Part shown: in pieces, positions 14,860 to 25,944 of the stretch
How positions within the stretch are numbered: position 1 is the first letter of the stretch
How the letters are laid out: each line of letters opens with the position of its first letter
NCBI RefSeq assembly: GCF_004681185.1
Contig: NZ_SRIF01000001.1
Span: forward strand, 1,054,001-1,118,000
Source: Haloarcula amylovorans
GTDB taxonomy: Archaea > Halobacteriota > Halobacteria > Halobacteriales > Haloarculaceae
DNA: 64,000 nt
Direction: 5' to 3'
Made by a program: the position numbers and the translations under genes
Notes under the pieces: model-generated
The model's input: only the letters and a program-made list of their open reading frames with translations
What the model was told of the DNA's origin: nothing
Database searches by the model: none

Positions 14860-16965
14860 ATGGGACGACTCTCGACGCTGTTCGCGCCGGAACGGGTCGC
14901 CGTGATCGGGGCGACCGACTCGGAGGGGTCGGTCGGCCGCGCTATCACGTCGAACCTGCTGGAATCGTTCGATGGCGATGTCGTGGCGGTCAACCCCTAC
15001 AAGGACGACGTGTTGGGGCTTCGGTGCTACGACAACGTCGGCGACGTCGAAACATCCGACGGTATCGACGTCGCCGTGGTCGTGGTCCCGCCCGACGCCG
15101 CCGTCGAGGCCATCCGCGACGCCGGTGCCGCCGGCATCGAAAACGTCGTCGTCATCACCGCCGGGTTCGGGGAGACCGGCAGCGAGGGGGCCGCCCGCGA
15201 ACGCGACCTGCGGGAGGCCGCCGAGGCGTACGACCTCAACCTCGTGGGGCCGAACAGCCTCGGCGTCATGTCGACGCCGCGGGGCCTCAACGCCACGTTT
15301 GGCAACGAGATGGCGACCGAGGGAGACATCTCCTTCATGAGCCAGTCCGGGGCGTTCGTGACCGCCGTCCTCGACTGGGCCGCGGAACGCGATGTCGGCT
15401 TCAAGGACATCGTCTCGCTCGGCAACAAGGCCATCTTAGACGAGGGCGACTTCATCGCCGAGTGGGGCGACGACCCCGAGACCGAGGTCATCCTCGGCTA
15501 TCTGGAGGATATCGCCGACGGTGAGACGTTCGTCCAGACTGCCCGCGAGGTAACGCAGGACACACCCATCGTCCTCGTCAAGTCCGGTCGCACAGATGCG
15601 GGGGCCAACGCCGCCGCCTCCCACACCGGCGCGATGGCCGGCTCTGAACGAGCCTACGAGGCGGGTCTCGAACAGGCCGGGACGCTCCGCGTGGAGTCCG
15701 TCCAAGAGCTGTTCGACTTTGCGCAGATTCTCTCGGGGCAACCGCTGCCCGATGGCGAGGAGATCGCTATCGTCACGAACGCCGGTGGTCCCGGCGTGAT
15801 GACGACGGACGCCGTCGGCGACTCGGACCTCTCGCTGTCGTCGTTCGAGGACGAGACGCTCGACGCGCTCCGCGAGACGATGCCCGAGGAGGCCAACATC
15901 TACAATCCCGTGGACATCATCGGCGACGCTCCCGCCGAACGCTTCGAGACGGCGCTTGAGACGGTCCTGGAAGACGACAACGTCGCGATGGCCGTCGTCG
16001 TCGCCTGCCCGACCGCGGTGCTCTCCTTCGAGGAACTCGCCGAGGTCGTCGTCTCTCAACAGCAGGCCCACGAGATGCCCATCGCCACGACGCTGATGGG
16101 CGGGAAGTCGGTCGGGGCCGGCAGAGAGATTCTGAGCGAGGCCGGTATTCCCAACTACTTCGACCCGGCCCGCGCCATCGAGAGCCTCGACGCGCTCCGG
16201 GAGTACGACGAGATACAGTCCCGGGAGTACGAGGAGCCGGCGACGTTCGACGTAGACCGAGAGCGCGCCCGCGAGATATTGGAGTCCGCGACCCGCCGGG
16301 ACACCAACCGCCTCGGCGTCGAGGCGATGGAACTGCTCGACGCCTACGGCATCCCGACGCCCGCGGGCGGCGTCGTCTCCTCGCCCACGGAGGCCCAGGA
16401 ACTGGCAGAAGACATTGGCGACGACGTGGTGATGAAGATCGTCAGCCCGGACATCCTCCACAAGTCAGACATCGGCGGCGTCGAAGTCGGCGTCCCGCCC
16501 GAGGAGGTCCGAGACACCTACGAAGACTTAGTGGTTCGCGCCCGGAACTACCAGCAGGACGCCACGATACTGGGCGTACAAGTGCAGGAGATGGTCGACC
16601 TCGATTCGGGGACCGAGACCATTCTCGGCATGAACCGCGATCCGCAGTTCGGGCCGTTGCTGCTCTTTGGCCTCGGTGGAATCTTTGTGGAGGTCCTCGA
16701 AGACAACACCGTCAGAGTCGCGCCCGTGAGCGAGCCCGAGGCCCGAGGCATGCTGGACGACATCGAGTCCGCGCCGCTGCTCCGGGGCGCACGCGGCCGC
16801 GACCCCGTCGACGAGGACGCCCTCGTCGAGGCGGTCCAGCGACTCTCACAACTCGTCACGGACTTCCCGGCCATCGTCGAACTGGACATCAATCCGCTCG
16901 TTGCGACCCCCGGCGGGGTGCAGGCCGTCGACCTGCGACTCACCATCGACCAGGAGGAACTATGA
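14860..16965 (+). CDS. acd: Acetate/acyl-CoA ligase (ADP-forming), fused alpha-beta subunits
   Basis: 701 residues. The N-terminal CoA-binding domain starts with the VAVIGATDSEGSVG Rossmann motif (about 13-26). Succinyl-CoA-ligase-like domains follow with the phosphorylated histidine in SHTGAMAG (His255). The C-terminal part is an ATP-grasp domain with HKSDIGGVEVGV. It converts acyl-CoA + ADP + Pi to acid + CoA + ATP, the usual haloarchaeal route for acetate formation, and the reverse direction is possible. Its stop overlaps the start of the next gene (ATGA). Confidence 0.9.
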   Translation: MGRLSTLFAPERVAVIGATDSEGSVGRAITSNLLESFDGDVVAVNPYKDDVLGLRCYDNVGDVETSDGIDVAVVVVPPDAAVEAIRDAGAAGIENVVVITAGFGETGSEGAARERDLREAAEAYDLNLVGPNSLGVMSTPRGLNATFGNEMATEGDISFMSQSGAFVTAVLDWAAERDVGFKDIVSLGNKAILDEGDFIAEWGDDPETEVILGYLEDIADGETFVQTAREVTQDTPIVLVKSGRTDAGANAAASHTGAMAGSERAYEAGLEQAGTLRVESVQELFDFAQILSGQPLPDGEEIAIVTNAGGPGVMTTDAVGDSDLSLSSFEDETLDALRETMPEEANIYNPVDIIGDAPAERFETALETVLEDDNVAMAVVVACPTAVLSFEELAEVVVSQQQAHEMPIATTLMGGKSVGAGREILSEAGIPNYFDPARAIESLDALREYDEIQSREYEEPATFDVDRERAREILESATRRDTNRLGVEAMELLDAYGIPTPAGGVVSSPTEAQELAEDIGDDVVMKIVSPDILHKSDIGGVEVGVPPEEVRDTYEDLVVRARNYQQDATILGVQVQEMVDLDSGTETILGMNRDPQFGPLLLFGLGGIFVEVLEDNTVRVAPVSEPEARGMLDDIESAPLLRGARGRDPVDEDALVEAVQRLSQLVTDFPAIVELDINPLVATPGGVQAVDLRLTIDQEEL

Positions 16966-18038
16966 CCGACTCGAACACGCTACTCGTCACGTCGACTGAG
17001 GAAGGTATCGGCAAGACCGCAATCACCCTCGCGCTCGCGAAATCGGCCAAAGCGGAAGGCCACGAGGTCGGCTACATGAAGCCAAAGGGGACCCGCCTCC
17101 AAAGCGCCGTGGGCAAGACCCGCGACGAGGACCCGATGCTCGCCCGGGAACTCCTCGGACTAGACGCCGAGGTCCACGAGATGGAACCCATCGTCTACTC
17201 GCCGACGTTCATTCAGGAGGCCATCCGCGGCCGCGAGGACCCCGAGGAACTCCGCGAGCGAGTCGTCGAGAACTTCGAGATGCTCGCCGAGGGGACCGAT
17301 CTGATGGTCGTCGAGGGGAGCGACCGGCTCGATACGGGCGGCATCGTCGATCTGACGGACGCCGACATCGCCGAGGCGCTCGACGCGCGCGTCCTCCTCG
17401 TCTGCGGGTACACCAACGCGGGCGATACCGACGAAGTGTTGGCGGCCGCCCGAGCGCTCGGCGACCGACTGGCTGGCGTGCTGTTCAACGGTGTCGCCGA
17501 CGCGGCGATGGACGACCTCTCCGACGACGTTCTCCCCTTCCTCGAAGGCCGCGGCGTGCCGGTGTTCGGGTCGCTCCCGCGCGTGCAGGAACTCGCGGGT
17601 ATCACGGTCGACGACCTCTCGCGGAGCCTCGGCGCGGACGTTCTCACCAACGAGGCGTCGACGGACGCCCACGTAGAGCGCTTCACCGTCGGTGCGATGG
17701 GCGGCAACAGCGCATTAGACCAGTTCCGGCGGACCCGCGACGCCGTGATGGTCACCGGCGGCGACCGCTCTGAGGTTCAGACTGCCGCGCTCGAAGCCTC
17801 GGGCATCAAGGCGCTCTTGCTGACCGGCGGGTTCCGCCCGGCGAGTGCCGTCCTTGGTCGCGCCGAGGAGGAGAACGTCCCCATTCTGTTGGTGCAGTCC
17901 GACACCCGCACCACTATCGACCGGATGGAGGACGTTCTCCGCTCGGGGCGGACGCGAAACGAGCAGACCGTCGAGCGGATGCAAGGATTGCTGGACGACG
18001 GCGTGGACGTTCACGCCCTGCTCGGCTTCGACGAGTAG
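16962..18038 (+). CDS. BioD-like P-loop/DRTGG-domain protein (phosphotransacetylase N-terminal-like)
   Basis: 358 residues. The N-terminal 210 or so form a dethiobiotin-synthetase-like AAA_26 domain with TSTEEGIGKTA as a P-loop. The remainder (LTNEASTDAHVERFTVGAMG onwards) is a DRTGG domain. The same two domains form the N-terminal regulatory part of long bacterial phosphotransacetylases, but the catalytic Pta domain is absent. It is translationally coupled to the ADP-forming CoA ligase, so a regulatory role in acyl-CoA/acetate metabolism is likely. It should not be read as BioD, which is at 18242-18931. Confidence 0.75.
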   Translation: MTDSNTLLVTSTEEGIGKTAITLALAKSAKAEGHEVGYMKPKGTRLQSAVGKTRDEDPMLARELLGLDAEVHEMEPIVYSPTFIQEAIRGREDPEELRERVVENFEMLAEGTDLMVVEGSDRLDTGGIVDLTDADIAEALDARVLLVCGYTNAGDTDEVLAAARALGDRLAGVLFNGVADAAMDDLSDDVLPFLEGRGVPVFGSLPRVQELAGITVDDLSRSLGADVLTNEASTDAHVERFTVGAMGGNSALDQFRRTRDAVMVTGGDRSEVQTAALEASGIKALLLTGGFRPASAVLGRAEEENVPILLVQSDTRTTIDRMEDVLRSGRTRNEQTVERMQGLLDDGVDVHALLGFDE

Positions 18039-18241: not shown

Positions 18242-18931
18242 CTATAGAGCGTCGAAAACGGTCGCCGGCACGTGCTCTCGAACGCCTGAGACAGCGACGG
18301 ACGGGTCGGAAAGGGAGAGCGGCGGGAGCGGCCACACCGGACAGTCGGTCATGCCTTCCAGCACCTCGGGGTTCGTCCGTTCGGCCGTCGTCGCCCCCTC
18401 GTACTCGTTGAACACGATGCCGCGAACCGACACCCCGCGGTCGCGGAGCGCGTCGACTGTCAGTCCCGTGTGGTTGAGCGTCCCCAGTCCCGACCGGGCG
18501 ACGACGACCGCTGGCAGGCCGATATCTGCCACGAGGTCCAGTACCTCTCGGTCGTCGGCGAGCGGCACTCGCAGGCCGCCGATTCCCTCCACGACCGCGG
18601 TCTCGTGGGCGTCGACGGCGGCTTCGACGCCGTCCCGAATTTCGTCGTAGGAGAGGTCAGTATCGGTCCGATCGGCGGCGACGGCGGGCGCGAGCGGCGG
18701 TTCCAGCCGTCTGAGACAGGTCGCTGCCTCCTCGGACCCGCAGGCCTCGGCGACGAACCCGGCGTCGTCGTCCGGCGGATAGCCGGTCTGACAGGGTTTG
18801 ATCGCGATAGCGTCCCGTCCCCGCTCGCGGAGCCACCCGGTCAGCCCGGCGGTGACGACCGTCTTGCCGACGCCGGTGTCCGTCCCGACGACGAACAGAC
18901 CGCCTGCGCCGCCAGTCGACCCGTCGCTCAC
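18242..18931 (-). CDS. bioD: Dethiobiotin synthase
   Basis: 229 residues from a GTG at 18931 that overlaps the bioF stop (GTGA). The P-loop GTDTGVGKT is at about 16-24; KPCQTGYPPDD and the later VEGIGGLRVPL match the ATP/substrate-binding segments of BioD. It closes the ureido ring of diaminononanoate (DAN, or the carbamate made by BioU) using ATP and CO2. The family length of about 220 residues fits this start; a longer in-frame start at 18976 would lie inside bioF. Confidence 0.88.
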   Translation of the reverse strand: MSDGSTGGAGGLFVVGTDTGVGKTVVTAGLTGWLRERGRDAIAIKPCQTGYPPDDDAGFVAEACGSEEAATCLRRLEPPLAPAVAADRTDTDLSYDEIRDGVEAAVDAHETAVVEGIGGLRVPLADDREVLDLVADIGLPAVVVARSGLGTLNHTGLTVDALRDRGVSVRGIVFNEYEGATTAERTNPEVLEGMTDCPVWPLPPLSLSDPSVAVSGVREHVPATVFDAL

Positions 18932-20133
18932 AGCAGACCGACCTCCTCGCCAGCCGTCTCGAAGGCGTCGAGACACCGTTGAAGATCTTCGTCGGTGTGT
19001 GTAGCCGTTGGTGCGACGCGGATGCGCGAGGTCCCCTCGGGCACTGTCGGCGGCCGAATAGCCGGTGCGACGATAGCGTGGTCGCGCAGGCGCTCGTCGA
19101 GTTCGAGGGCGTCCACGCGGTCACCGACCAGCACGGGAAGGATATGTGTCTCGCCCAGTACCTCGTAGCCCCGCGCTTCGAGTCCCTCCCGGAGCGTCTC
19201 GACGTTCGCCCACAGTCGGTCGGACTGGTCCGTCTCGCGGGCGACACGCAGCGCTTCGCGAGCCGACGCCGCTGCGGGCGGGGCCAGTCCCGTCGAGAAG
19301 ACGAACGAGCGCGCGGCGTTGAGGAGATATTCGATGAGCGGCTCGTCTCCCGCGACGTAGCCGCCCTGACTGGCGAGTGCCTTCGAGAGCGTTCCCATCT
19401 GTATCTCGACGCGGTCGCTCAGGCCCTCGCGCTGGACGATGCCGCCGCCGCGCTCGCCGAACAGTCCCGTGGCATGGGCCTCGTCCACCATGAGCCACGC
19501 GCCGTACTCCTCGGCGGCGTCACAGAGCGCCGAGAGCGGGGCCACGTCGCCGTCCATCGAGAACACGGAGTCGGTGACGACCAGCCACCGTTCGTCGGCT
19601 GTCGCCCCGTCCTCGGCCCGTCTCTCCATCTTCGCCCGAAGGTCGGCGGCGTCGCAGTGGTCGTACACCACCGTCTCGTCCGCGCCGAGGCGACAGCCGT
19701 CGATGATGGAGGCGTGGTTGAGTTCGTCCGAGAAGACCACGTCCGGTGAGAGCGCGTCGATGGTGCCGACGTTCGCGGCGTAGCCAGCCGAGAAGACCAG
19801 TGCGCGTTGCGTTCCCTTACAGTCGGCGAGGTCCCGTTCGAGCGCCCGATGGACGGCCGTATCGCCGGTGACGAGCCGGGAGGCTCCCGCGCCCGTACCG
19901 ACCGTTCGAGCGCCGAGTTCGGCCGCCCGTTGGAGACGGCCGTCGTCGGCCAGTCCGAGGTAGTCGTTCGCGGCGAAGACGACCGACTCGTCCCCGAACT
20001 CGGGTGCGTCGCCCTTCGGGTCGTCGGCCAGTCGCGTCCGGTCGCCGGCAGTCTCGGTGACTTCCAGATGCCGGCGGAGATCGTCGTCTGCCCGCGCGTC
20101 TAGACGGGCGTCCAAGTCGAACCCGTGAGTCAT
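18928..20133 (-). CDS. bioF: 8-amino-7-oxononanoate synthase (KAPA synthase)
   Basis: 401 residues from ATG 20133; an upstream GTG at 20142 is in frame. It is a PLP-dependent alpha-oxoamine synthase with the ANDYLGLA motif near the N-terminus, [22 protein letters not shown] and the PLP-lysine motif GTLSKALAS. It condenses pimeloyl thioester with alanine to make KAPA, the substrate of BioA or BioU. It is the first gene of bioF-bioD, divergent from the class III aminotransferase at 20218 across 84 bp. Confidence 0.9.
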
Positions 20134-20217
20134 CGTCAGCACTGTCGTAGCGGACCCCTTTAGGACTGTAGCTTTCCGCAGGTACGGTTTTACGTCCGCG
20201 GCGTGACACTAGTGGGC

Positions 20218-21537
20218 ATGGACCGTGATACAGCCGAACCGACCGTCGATTCGTTCCCGGGACCGCGCGCTCGGGACCGGGCCAGCCGTCACGCGGCCGT
20301 CGCCGCCCCCAGCACGCACGTCTACGAGTTCGTCTGGGACCCGACGGCCGACGCCATCGGTCCCTACTGTACGGACGTGGACGGGAACGTTCTCCTCGAT
20401 TTCACGTCCCACGTCGCCGCCGCTCCCCTCGGCTACAACAACCCGCACCTGCTCGCCCGCCTCGACGAGTTCGACCTCGTCGACCCGCTGAAGTTCGCGG
20501 GGCAGGACTTCTACGCCGACCTCGGTGACCTCCCCGGGCCGACCGAACTGATGGAACGTCTCACCGATATCGCTCCCGACGGCCACGACACGGTGTTCCT
20601 CTCGAACACCGGCGCAGAGGCCGTCGAGAACGCGATCAAAATCTGCTACGACGCTCGTCCGGGCGCGGAGTACGGAATCACCTTCGAGGGTAGCTTCCAC
20701 GGACGAACGCTCGGCGCGCTCTCGCTCAACCGCTCGAAGGCCGTCCACCGTCGCGGGTTCCCCGAAATAGCCGGCGTCTCGTCGGTACCGTTCTGTGAGG
20801 ACCAAACCTGTGACCCCAGTACCTGTTCCTGCGGGTTCTTCCCCGACGAATCCGGCACCTCGTGGCTCCGACGTCGACTCGGACCGGACGGCAGTATCGA
20901 CCCCGAGTCGGTAGCGTACGTCATCCTCGAACCGGTACAGGGAGAGGGAGGCTATCGCATCCCGAGCGAGGCGTTCATGGCGGAAGTGGCGGCTGTCTGT
21001 GGCGAGTACGGGATCCCACTTATCGCCGACGAGATACAGACCGGGATGGGGCGAACGGGCGAGTGGTGGGGCGCGGACAACTACGCCATCGAACCGGACG
21101 TCCTCGCGGTGGCGAAGGGCCTCCGCGTCGGCGCGACCGTCGGTCGCGAGGAACTGTTCCCCGACCAGACCGGTCGCCTCTCTTCGACGTGGGGCGGCGG
21201 TGACCTGCTCTCCTCGATGGTCGGCGCGCTCACCATCGACGCCATCCAAGCAGAGAACCTCCGACAGAACGCGAGAAAACGGGGCGACGAACTGGCGGAG
21301 CTGCTCGACACCAGCCCTATCGTGGACGCTATCGACGTTCGTAACCTCGGGTCACTGGTTGCCGTCGAGTTCGAGACGAAGGCCCGCCGCGACGAGATGG
21401 TCACGGCCTGTGCGAAGGCGGGACTGCTCACGCTCCCCTGCGGGCTGAAGACGATCAGACTGCTCCCGCCGCTTGACGTTCGAGAGCGAGAGATAGCGCA
21501 GGCCGTCGCCCGCTTCGAGGACGCGGCTGAGGTCTAA
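20218..21537 (+). CDS. Class III PLP-dependent aminotransferase with a Cys-rich insert
   Basis: 439 residues from ATG 20218. It is a class III aminotransferase with NTGAEAVENA at 130-139, Asp271 in ADEIQTGMGRTG and the probable PLP lysine Lys300 in AVAKGL. Between the GSFHGRT loop and the D-E-I-Q motif there is an unusual cysteine cluster, C193, C198, C203 and C205 (FCEDQTCDPSTCSC), that could bind a metal. It resembles archaeal omega-aminotransferases (4-aminobutyrate/ornithine/acetylornithine type). It lies between bioF and bioU, so a BioA-like role is possible, but substrate residues do not show this. Confidence 0.8.
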   Translation: MDRDTAEPTVDSFPGPRARDRASRHAAVAAPSTHVYEFVWDPTADAIGPYCTDVDGNVLLDFTSHVAAAPLGYNNPHLLARLDEFDLVDPLKFAGQDFYADLGDLPGPTELMERLTDIAPDGHDTVFLSNTGAEAVENAIKICYDARPGAEYGITFEGSFHGRTLGALSLNRSKAVHRRGFPEIAGVSSVPFCEDQTCDPSTCSCGFFPDESGTSWLRRRLGPDGSIDPESVAYVILEPVQGEGGYRIPSEAFMAEVAAVCGEYGIPLIADEIQTGMGRTGEWWGADNYAIEPDVLAVAKGLRVGATVGREELFPDQTGRLSSTWGGGDLLSSMVGALTIDAIQAENLRQNARKRGDELAELLDTSPIVDAIDVRNLGSLVAVEFETKARRDEMVTACAKAGLLTLPCGLKTIRLLPPLDVREREIAQAVARFEDAAEV

Positions 21538-21557: not shown

Positions 21558-22685
21558 TCAGAAGCCGGGCATCAGGTCGGCCGGGCCGAAGACGCCGTAG
21601 TGGCCCGCGCGGTTGTTGCGGACCCCCGCGGCGAGGTAGCCGAGCGCCGGGCCGTTGACGTTTGCTTCCATGCTGGTCGCGTCGTCCAATTCGAAGGTGT
21701 TGGTCCCCGTCTCGCCGTCGAAGGTCGTCCCGGTGACCGAGACGGTGGTCGTCGTCGGTTTCTCGTCGGAGCGCACGTCTAAGATGCCGCCGACGTGGAC
21801 GTCGTCCGCGTCACAGATGCCCGCTCGTTCCAAGAGAACGTCGTCTGCGTGTTCCATGTCGTGGAACTCCAGGACGCCGTCGTGCTCGTCGATGAGCGCC
21901 TCGATTTCGGCCTCGCTCATCTCGCGGGCCGTCTCGATGTCGTAGCCGTCGAGGTGGGCAATGTCTTCCCGGACGGTGCCGCGGTTGTCCTCGTAGCCGC
22001 TCTTGAGGCCGACGCCCCACCAGATCTCGACTTCCTCGACCTCGACGAACGACTGGGCTGCGAGCGCCGCCGCGCCGGTCAGAAATCCCGGCGTCGCGCC
22101 CGCGCCACAGACGAACGTGATACCCGACTCTTTCAGGAGCGCTTCGCGGTCGTCGAGCATCCCGATGACGCGCGACCGCTTGAGCACGTCCACGAGGACG
22201 CCCTCGTACTCCGCTTCGGCGAAGCGCTTGGCGACGCGGGGGATGAAGTCGTGTTCGAGGTTCGGCAGCGCGACGAGGACGGCGTCGATGTCGTCGCTCT
22301 CGGCGATGATGTCGTCGATGGGCGTCTCCGTCGGACGGCCCTGTTCGCTGGCGACGATGCCCGCCTCCTCGCCGTGCTGTTTGACGCCCTCGGTAGCTGT
22401 GCCGGCGTCGGCTTTCGCCCCGCCGTCAGTGGCGACATCTCCTTCGGGGCCGCTGTCTCGCGGCTCATCGCCGCTCGACTCTTTCGAGCCACTCCGTGGC
22501 CCGCTCGCGATGTTCCCCTCCGTCGCCTCCAGCAGTTCGGGCACGTCGAGGCCCTCGTGGTCGACGGCGACGCCGTTGCGGTCACAGGCCGCGACCGGCG
22601 TGAGTCCGTCCTTGTACTGGGAAACGTCGAGTGTTCGTCGGCCGATACCACCCGTTCCGAGTACCGCGAATCGTACGTCGTCCAT
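21558..22685 (-). CDS. bioU: BioU-like NAD(P)-dependent oxidoreductase (suicide diaminononanoate synthase), usually mislabelled saccharopine dehydrogenase-like
   Basis: 375 residues. The N-terminal Rossmann motif is VLGTGGIGRRT at about 8-18, and SDDIDAVLVALPN follows at about 130-142. VDVLKRSRVIG carries Lys169, in the right place to be the sacrificial lysine of cyanobacterial BioU (Lys124 there; the offset equals an acidic low-complexity insert at about 60-118). BioU reduces an imine formed between its own lysine and KAPA, then releases diaminononanoate, replacing BioA (established for cyanobacteria; I recall haloarchaeal homologues). The gene starts 2 bp after the bioB stop, strong operon evidence for biotin synthesis. 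Assignment is from context and motif, not from a search. Confidence 0.7.
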   Translation of the reverse strand: MDDVRFAVLGTGGIGRRTLDVSQYKDGLTPVAACDRNGVAVDHEGLDVPELLEATEGNIASGPRSGSKESSGDEPRDSGPEGDVATDGGAKADAGTATEGVKQHGEEAGIVASEQGRPTETPIDDIIAESDDIDAVLVALPNLEHDFIPRVAKRFAEAEYEGVLVDVLKRSRVIGMLDDREALLKESGITFVCGAGATPGFLTGAAALAAQSFVEVEEVEIWWGVGLKSGYEDNRGTVREDIAHLDGYDIETAREMSEAEIEALIDEHDGVLEFHDMEHADDVLLERAGICDADDVHVGGILDVRSDEKPTTTTVSVTGTTFDGETGTNTFELDDATSMEANVNGPALGYLAAGVRNNRAGHYGVFGPADLMPGF

Positions 22686-22687
22686 GC

Positions 22688-23803
22688 TTAGTCGTCTGAT
22701 TGAAGTTCGGATTTGCTCTGTGCGGTGCCTGCCGCCGTCTCCGTATCGGTTCCGTCGTCGGCGCGTTCCGCCACTGCTTCGGGATCGAAGTCGTTGGCCT
22801 CGGTGTTCGGTTCGAGCCCCGCTTCCTCGATAATTTCGAGGTCGTCAGCAGCCGACTGGCCCTCTGTCGTGAGGTAGTCGCCGGTGAGGATGCCGTCCGC
22901 GCCCGCCTCCAGTGCGGCCACCTGCCCGTCCGTATCGAGATTGACCTCGCGCCCGCCCGTGAGGCGCACGCGGGCCTCGGGGTGGAGCAGGCGGTACACC
23001 GCGATGGTCTCGATGACCTCCTCGGTCGTGATGTCGGGGAGTCCCCGCTCGGCCATCGGCGTCCCTTCGACCGGATTGAGGATGTTGACCGGGAGCGAGG
23101 AGACGCCGATCTCCTGCAACGCGATAGCCGCCTCGACCCGGTCGGTCGGCGTCTCGCCCATGCCGAGGATGACACCGGCACAGAGGTCCATGCCGGCGTC
23201 CTTGGCGACTTCGAGCGTCTCGACGCGGTCTTCGAAGGAGTGGGTCTGGACGATTTCGGGGAAGTAACGAGGCGAAGTCTCGATGTTGTGATTGTAGTGG
23301 TTCAGCCCCTCCTCGGCGAGAATCGCGGCTTCCTCCTCCGTGAGGATGCCGAGGCTGGCGTCCACCTCCACGTCCGTCTCGTCGCGTACGAGTCGGATTG
23401 CCTCCAGTACCTCTTCCCACTCGTCGGGACGCTGTTCCTTCGAGACGCCCTTCTCCGCGACGACGATTCCGAACCGCTGTGAGCCGTCGCGTTCCGCTCG
23501 CTTTGCGGCTTCCAGAATTTTCTCCGGACCCAGAAAGCCGTAGTTGTCGATACCGGTGTCGAAGTGGACGGACTGCGCACAGAACCCACAGTCCTCCGCG
23601 CAGTTTCCGGCCTTGGCGTTCACGATCGAGCACGCGTCGACGGTGTCGTCGCCCAGTTGCGTGCGGACGTAGTCCGCGCCCGCCGCGAGGGCGTCGACCG
23701 GTTGGGCGACGAGAGCCAACCCATCACGCCGGTCGAGTCGCTCACCGTCCAACACGCGTGTGACTGCGTCGTCTACCGTTCGGTTGCCCGTCTCGTAAAC
23801 CAC
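22688..23803 (-). CDS. bioB: Biotin synthase
   Basis: 371 residues. A radical-SAM protein with the 4Fe-4S motif C68-x3-C72-x2-C75 (NCAEDCGFCAQS), then YNHNIETS and the AGMDLCAGVILGMGE segment typical of BioB. It inserts sulfur into dethiobiotin. The core ends near residue 325 and the last 40 or so residues are an acidic haloarchaeal tail. It is the first gene of bioB-bioU, 5.6 kb from bioF-bioD. Confidence 0.93.
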   Translation of the reverse strand: MVYETGNRTVDDAVTRVLDGERLDRRDGLALVAQPVDALAAGADYVRTQLGDDTVDACSIVNAKAGNCAEDCGFCAQSVHFDTGIDNYGFLGPEKILEAAKRAERDGSQRFGIVVAEKGVSKEQRPDEWEEVLEAIRLVRDETDVEVDASLGILTEEEAAILAEEGLNHYNHNIETSPRYFPEIVQTHSFEDRVETLEVAKDAGMDLCAGVILGMGETPTDRVEAAIALQEIGVSSLPVNILNPVEGTPMAERGLPDITTEEVIETIAVYRLLHPEARVRLTGGREVNLDTDGQVAALEAGADGILTGDYLTTEGQSAADDLEIIEEAGLEPNTEANDFDPEAVAERADDGTDTETAAGTAQSKSELQSDD

Positions 23804-25074: not shown

Positions 25075-25884
25075 TCAGTAGAGGTCGTCCAGTTCCGACT
25101 CAGTGTTCGCGTGTTCCTCGGCTGGGAACTCGCCTGCTCGCACTGCGTCGGCGTAGTCGCTCACCGCGTCGTGAATCTCCGTGCGCGCATCGCCGAACTG
25201 CGCGGCGAAGGGCGGACTTGACTTGGCGAGTCCGACAACATCGGTGAAGACCAACACCTGTCCGTCGCACTCGCTGCCGGCCCCGATGCCAATGGTCGGG
25301 ATGTCGATGGCCTCGGTGACCTGTGCGGCGAGGTTCGCCGGGACGTGTTCTAAGACGAGGGCGAACGCACCCGCCTCCTCGTGTGCCTGTGCGAGTTCCA
25401 GAATTTCCGTCGCTTCCTCGCGGTCCGTCGCCTGCTGCGTGTAGCCGGTCTGGTTGACGCTCTGGGGGGTCAACCCGAGGTGAGCCATCGTGGGGATGCC
25501 GAGGTCCGACAACCGTTCGGTCAACTCCACGGTGTGTGGTCCCGACTCCAGTTTCACGGCGTTGGCTCCCTCTTCTTTGAGCATCCGGCCGCAGTTCTCG
25601 ACGCTCTCGGCCAGATCCGCGCCAAAGGAGAGAAACGGCATATCCGCGACGACCAGCGCCTCGTCGGTGCCGCGGGCCACCGCACCGACACGTGAGGCCA
25701 CCTCGTCGACGGTGACCGGTAGCGTGTCGTCGTATCCGAGCACGGCGTTACCCATGCTGTCGCCGACGAGGACCACGTCGATTCCCGCCTCGTCGACGAT
25801 GTTCGCCGTCGCCGCGTCGTACGCGGTCAGCATCGTTATCTGCTCGTCACCTGCCATCGCCTGTACGTCCCGGACAGTGGTCAT
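25075..25884 (-). CDS. panB: 3-methyl-2-oxobutanoate hydroxymethyltransferase
   Basis: 269 residues from ATG 25884 (MTTVRDVQAM); an ATG at 25890 is also in frame. It is a PanB TIM barrel with MLTAYDAA and VLVGDSMGNAVLGYDDTLPV near the N-terminus, KLESG in the middle, GIPTMAHLGLTPQ and IGIGAGSECDGQVLV at the end. It adds a hydroxymethyl group from methylene-tetrahydrofolate (or the archaeal carrier) to ketoisovalerate to make ketopantoate for CoA. It is monocistronic. Confidence 0.93.
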   Translation of the reverse strand: MTTVRDVQAMAGDEQITMLTAYDAATANIVDEAGIDVVLVGDSMGNAVLGYDDTLPVTVDEVASRVGAVARGTDEALVVADMPFLSFGADLAESVENCGRMLKEEGANAVKLESGPHTVELTERLSDLGIPTMAHLGLTPQSVNQTGYTQQATDREEATEILELAQAHEEAGAFALVLEHVPANLAAQVTEAIDIPTIGIGAGSECDGQVLVFTDVVGLAKSSPPFAAQFGDARTEIHDAVSDYADAVRAGEFPAEEHANTESELDDLY

Positions 25885-25944
25885 GTGCATGGCCGGGCGC
25901 GGCGCGCTATTACGTGTTCGGGTCCCACGACGGGAGCTACCGCG

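Follow-up and report, generated by a model that had tools for sequence, protein, structure and literature searches.

How haloarchaea carry 8-amino-7-oxononanoate (KAPA) on towards biotin is a question left by a 2018 survey of archaeal biotin genes, which tabulated Halobacteria with bioF, bioD and bioB and recorded bioA in none of 31 genomes, so that the haloarchaeal pathway had a hole (PMC6138646). The same survey gives bioWFADB for the Methanococcales and bioABD(F) for the Thaumarchaeota (PMC6138646); these systems have bioF, bioD and bioB in common with the one described here, but they use bioA. The question is raised again by the window, that is, the whole 64,000-nucleotide stretch of Haloarcula amylovorans DNA that was analysed, in which a gene for a dehydrogenase-like protein adjoins bioB. 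Our analysis suggests an answer: this haloarchaeon appears to make biotin with BioU, in place of bioA. The genes concerned are as follows.

22688-23803, minus strand: bioB, biotin synthase (radical SAM and BATS), 344 bits against a cut-off of 225
21558-22685, minus strand: predicted bioU, BioU-type (S)-8-amino-7-oxononanoate synthase (DAPA-forming suicide dehydrogenase), 375 aa, ATG start
20203-21537, plus strand: class III aminotransferase lying between bioU and bioF, closest to models of the PRK05769/PRK08117 type
18928-20142, minus strand: bioF, KAPA synthase, TIGR00858 405.8 bits, slightly below the cut-off of 426
18242-18976, minus strand: bioD, dethiobiotin synthase, TIGR00347 129.7 bits against a cut-off of 83.3, overlapping bioF

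The bioB gene lies upstream of bioU on the same strand with a gap of 2 bp, and this pair is split from the bioF-bioD pair by the aminotransferase gene on the opposite strand. A sequence-only reading of this DNA had proposed that a BioU-like gene begins 2 bp after bioB, that its product has a Rossmann N-terminus and carries Lys169 within VDVLKRSRV, and that with bioF and bioD at 18.2-20.1 kb the window encodes a KAPA-to-biotin route lacking classical BioA. The coordinates of the open reading frames (22688-23803(-) and 21558-22685(-)) bear out the spacing, those of the overlapping bioD and bioF frames agree with the position given for them, and the translated 375-aa protein displays both the lysine in its motif and a GxGGxG motif (VLGTGGIGRRT). 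The proposed route is likewise supported, as none of the three conditions named as refuting it held when each was checked. Hence the earlier description of the gene stands; the aminotransferase on the plus strand had gone unmentioned. Close upstream of bioB, at 25075-25890(-), there is also a gene whose translation, inspected by eye, looks like that of panB (ketopantoate hydroxymethyltransferase), which belongs to another vitamin pathway.

It is informative to consider first what the 375-aa protein resembles. The sole NCBIfam model that it matches is NF047886, (S)-8-amino-7-oxononanoate synthase BioU (E 8e-99, 331 bits); phmmer matches it to the structures of Synechocystis Slr0355 at E ~4e-81, and Slr0355/BioU chains are its only sequence matches among solved structures at E <0.1. 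Such similarity cannot be put down to chance. Over the catalytic part, 125 of 272 residues aligned with Slr0355 are identical (46%). Pfam, saccharopine dehydrogenase included, yields no match at E 0.001. The possibility of a better match to saccharopine or lysine-pathway enzymes had been raised together with the original proposal, and both the sequence matches and the fold matches fall to BioU instead. Taken together, sequence and model identify the product of 21558-22685 as a BioU orthologue. The score of 331 bits is below the curated NF047886 cut-off of 600, which is reached in none of 391 haloarchaeal genomes; because all of them fall below it, this cut-off looks to have been set on cyanobacteria. 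It is also too high for the BioU (430 bits) of G665, a genome that belongs to the same phylum but to a family outside the haloarchaea. Since neither the 391 haloarchaeal genomes nor G665 reach the cut-off, archaeal BioU will be missed by annotation pipelines. Plasmid records label haloarchaeal BioU proteins "hypothetical protein" or "transcriptional regulator".

The predicted structure leads to the same reading. An AlphaFold model (mean pLDDT 79), in which loops are less certain, has the BioU fold of a Rossmann domain and a catalytic domain, and its five best Foldseek matches are the five Synechocystis BioU entries (E ~1e-38 to 2e-36, target TM 0.87-0.89); the next fold is that of D-amino acid/meso-DAP dehydrogenases, at E ~1e-10 and TM ~0.5. 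Residues ~60-104 form a variable disordered insert that the model does not resolve (pLDDT <50). Among haloarchaeal BioU proteins this insert in the Rossmann half spans 20-84 residues between two conserved positions, with 68 in the window protein. The alignment places Lys169 on the catalytic Lys124 of Synechocystis BioU, the correspondence on which the sequence-only reading depended, and the K124A chain (6itd) has Ala at that column; likewise, His279 corresponds to His233, with Ala at that column in the H233A chain (6k38). Lys124 and His233 are the residues mutated in these BioU crystal structures. A 45-sequence archaeal alignment shows no variation at Lys169, Arg170, His279 or the glycines of GxGGxG, and the DVLKRS motif is present in all 75 named loci checked. 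The window protein and BioU of Synechocystis sp. PCC 6803 (Slr0355; 6ir4, 6itd, 6k36, 6k37, 6k38; NF047886) thus have in common their fold, the equivalents of Lys124 and His233, the Rossmann motif, C-terminal residues and, probably, a role between KAPA and dethiobiotin. They differ in the haloarchaeal insert of variable length, in the bioB-bioU-bioF-bioD operon and in a score under the NCBI BioU cut-off.

What the protein does may be read across from the cyanobacterial enzyme. In Synechocystis BioU, the lysine and KAPA condense, NAD(P)H reduces the imine and the new amine is carboxylated; NAD(P)+ then drives release of DAPA-carbamate, leaving the lysine modified and the enzyme dead (PMC12915131, PMC7133116). 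If the haloarchaeal chemistry and its single turnover follow this model, KAPA supplied by BioF would form an imine with Lys169, which would be reduced with NAD(P)H before CO2 is taken up, and oxidation by NAD(P)+ would release DAPA-carbamate. Lys169 would be left converted and, because of this, each BioU molecule would work once; BioD would close the ureido ring, and BioB would then insert sulfur. With its sequence, fold, catalytic residues, operon context and co-inheritance shown by the present analysis, and its chemistry read across from Synechocystis, we consider it very probable that 21558-22685 is a haloarchaeal bioU whose product would turn KAPA into DAPA-carbamate on its own Lys169, each molecule working a single time. 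It is also worth considering that the haloarchaeal protein might make DAPA over many turnovers, with another enzyme restoring the allysine to lysine or an external amine replacing Lys169. Nothing direct favors this, the one suggestive circumstance being that some genomes have an aminotransferase beside bioU, but that neighbor is not conserved, and at the active site both Lys and His are the residues found in Synechocystis and do not vary; we judge multiple turnover to be very unlikely. The more specific idea, that the neighboring aminotransferase would restore the used lysine, was likewise dropped, as the neighborhood is not conserved. As a separate matter, RNase treatment changes the position of Synechocystis BioU in gradients, which hints at an RNA-linked complex (PMC12475003).

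The same aminotransferase invites another explanation, in which the true DAPA synthase, a BioA, is encoded at 20203-21537 and the dehydrogenase does something else. Its place between bioU and bioF, its class III fold, which is that of BioA, and a match of 151 bits to the BioA model TIGR00508 would fit this explanation. However, 151 bits is below the TIGR00508 cut-off of 405 (a threshold reached in six of 14 control genomes), and 17 other models score higher, so that bioA is roughly the 18th best; no BioA structure occurs among its best 60 PDB matches. Furthermore, among 80 relatives only Haloarcula pellucida and Halomicroarcula rubra have this aminotransferase in the same position (75-76% identical), whereas bioU is there in 80 of 80 and bioF mostly follows it directly. 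Family scores and unconserved synteny rule the gene out as bioA, and we regard this explanation as extremely improbable; most likely the aminotransferase is a clade-specific insertion, and we do not consider it part of the pathway. The BioU assigned here and BioA (TIGR00508; a PLP- and S-adenosylmethionine-dependent DAPA synthase) would serve the same metabolic step with unrelated folds and chemistry.

A bioA gene elsewhere in the genome would also have weakened the case for BioU. None of the 391 haloarchaeal genomes reaches the TIGR00508 cut-off. In the H. amylovorans genome all six class III aminotransferases fit other families better; of the five besides the one next to bioU, L001 is better described as PRK08117-type, L002 as ArgD/LysJ-type, L003 as a member of the diaminobutyrate family, L004 as PRK06062/PRK06541-type and L006 as HemL. 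The top haloarchaeal matches to the BioA model (L117-L136) score no higher than 324 bits, and the 1.5 kb on either side of them contains no bio gene.

The distribution of BioU among haloarchaea can be examined in the same sample, which includes the window's own genome. With presence called at E<1e-35, BioU occurs in 150 of the 391 genomes, about four in ten, and the remainder give weak matches or none; the BioU route is thus common in haloarchaea and not special to H. amylovorans. The bioB gene is found in 180 genomes, among them all 150 that carry BioU. The bioD gene (149 genomes) accompanies BioU in 148 of 150 genomes and occurs in only one of the 241 that lack it, a co-occurrence with a Fisher p of ~1e-105 by a statistic that ignores the relatedness of the genomes. 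On inspection all three exceptions trace to gene fragments or the ends of contigs: in one BioU genome the contig stops inside bioD (G186), in the other bioD is frame-split into two pieces (G324), and the lone bioD lies at a contig end beside a truncated bioF (G227). Thirty genomes have bioB and no BioU; bioD passes its cut-off in none of them and a bioF-like gene is present in only six, and they may be dethiobiotin users or hold degraded pathways. Of 80 named haloarchaeal loci, among them those of Haloarcula, Halosimplex, Natrinema, Natrialba, Haloferax, Halorubrum and Halococcus, 73 have all four genes on one strand in the order bioB-bioU-bioF-bioD, and four of the seven incomplete loci sit at contig ends. 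That the window protein might instead work in lysine or amino acid metabolism, as an enzyme like saccharopine dehydrogenase or diaminopimelate dehydrogenase, has practically no chance of being right. The Rossmann fold is shared with such enzymes, and Foldseek also lists meso-DAP/D-amino acid dehydrogenases and lysine dehydrogenase, but these fold matches are ~28 orders of magnitude weaker in E-value, at a TM of ~0.5; Pfam gives no match, the catalytic Lys and His typical of BioU do not vary, and the gene follows bioD from genome to genome.

Decay of the pathway follows the same pattern. Two of the thirty genomes with bioB and no BioU, G182 and G215, which belong to different genera, retain bioU only as a decayed piece between intact bioB and bioF. 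In the former this is a C-terminal piece with a stop and a frameshift (L159:9374-9556(+)), and bioD is a stub; in the latter it is an N-terminal piece (L172:7860-7952(-)), and bioD was not found in that genome. If bioU and bioD serve one pathway, their joint loss is to be expected.

BioU is already a known enzyme, and the window protein is one more member of its family; the result is best regarded as a firm and well-supported re-annotation that closes a documented gap, rather than as a new kind of system. In every sampled genome that has bioD and an assembled neighborhood, BioU would fill the bioA gap of the haloarchaeal biotin pathway, and a single-use enzyme would thereby be extended from cyanobacteria to archaea. 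The re-annotation would also correct the mislabeling of haloarchaeal BioU proteins and a family cut-off too high for any of the archaeal genomes sampled. In the literature that we could read we found neither a paper joining BioU with haloarchaea or Haloferax, although the BioU discovery paper may mention homologues, nor a biochemical assay of an archaeal BioU. BioE, described as a diiron oxygenase (PMC12915131) and named here as a contrast on the strength of that description, is also an alternative biotin pathway module, but it is a different enzyme.

The supply of pimeloyl-CoA now becomes a testable question for haloarchaea that lack bioW. Because no bioW was found in the H. amylovorans genome, the pathway of this organism is complete only from pimeloyl-CoA onwards; among 20 other BioU genomes tested, only two have bioW. 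The gene is carried by G021, from a deep haloarchaeal family, and by G665. In both, bioW (6-carboxyhexanoate-CoA ligase) lies between bioB and bioU (L169:2892-3659(-) and L173:9692-10468(-), respectively), making bioB-bioW-bioU-bioF-bioD a complete pimelate-to-biotin operon. In the BioU of G665 the lysine motif is retained as VDALKRS, and the match to Slr0355 (E ~5e-110) is better still than that of the window protein. One can imagine that the suicidal BioU route, with this gene order, is ancestral in Halobacteriota and survives in G021 and G665, that most haloarchaea later lost bioW and turned to another source of pimeloyl-CoA, and that the cyanobacterial gene may share some history with the archaeal one; we offer this history tentatively and think it rather doubtful. 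Beside bioD in the window are two further genes, both named by eye from their translations.

14860-16965, plus strand: ADP-forming acyl-CoA synthetase-like gene
16962-18038, plus strand: P-loop partner gene

This pair was considered as a general supplier of pimeloyl-CoA and set aside, as only 18 of 80 loci have such genes close to the cluster. Finally, some genomes carry two copies of bioU (L070 and L076; L112 and L113; G230), and in Halorientalis salina the second copy adjoins bioB only; such duplicates are of interest for an enzyme of which each molecule would be used once.
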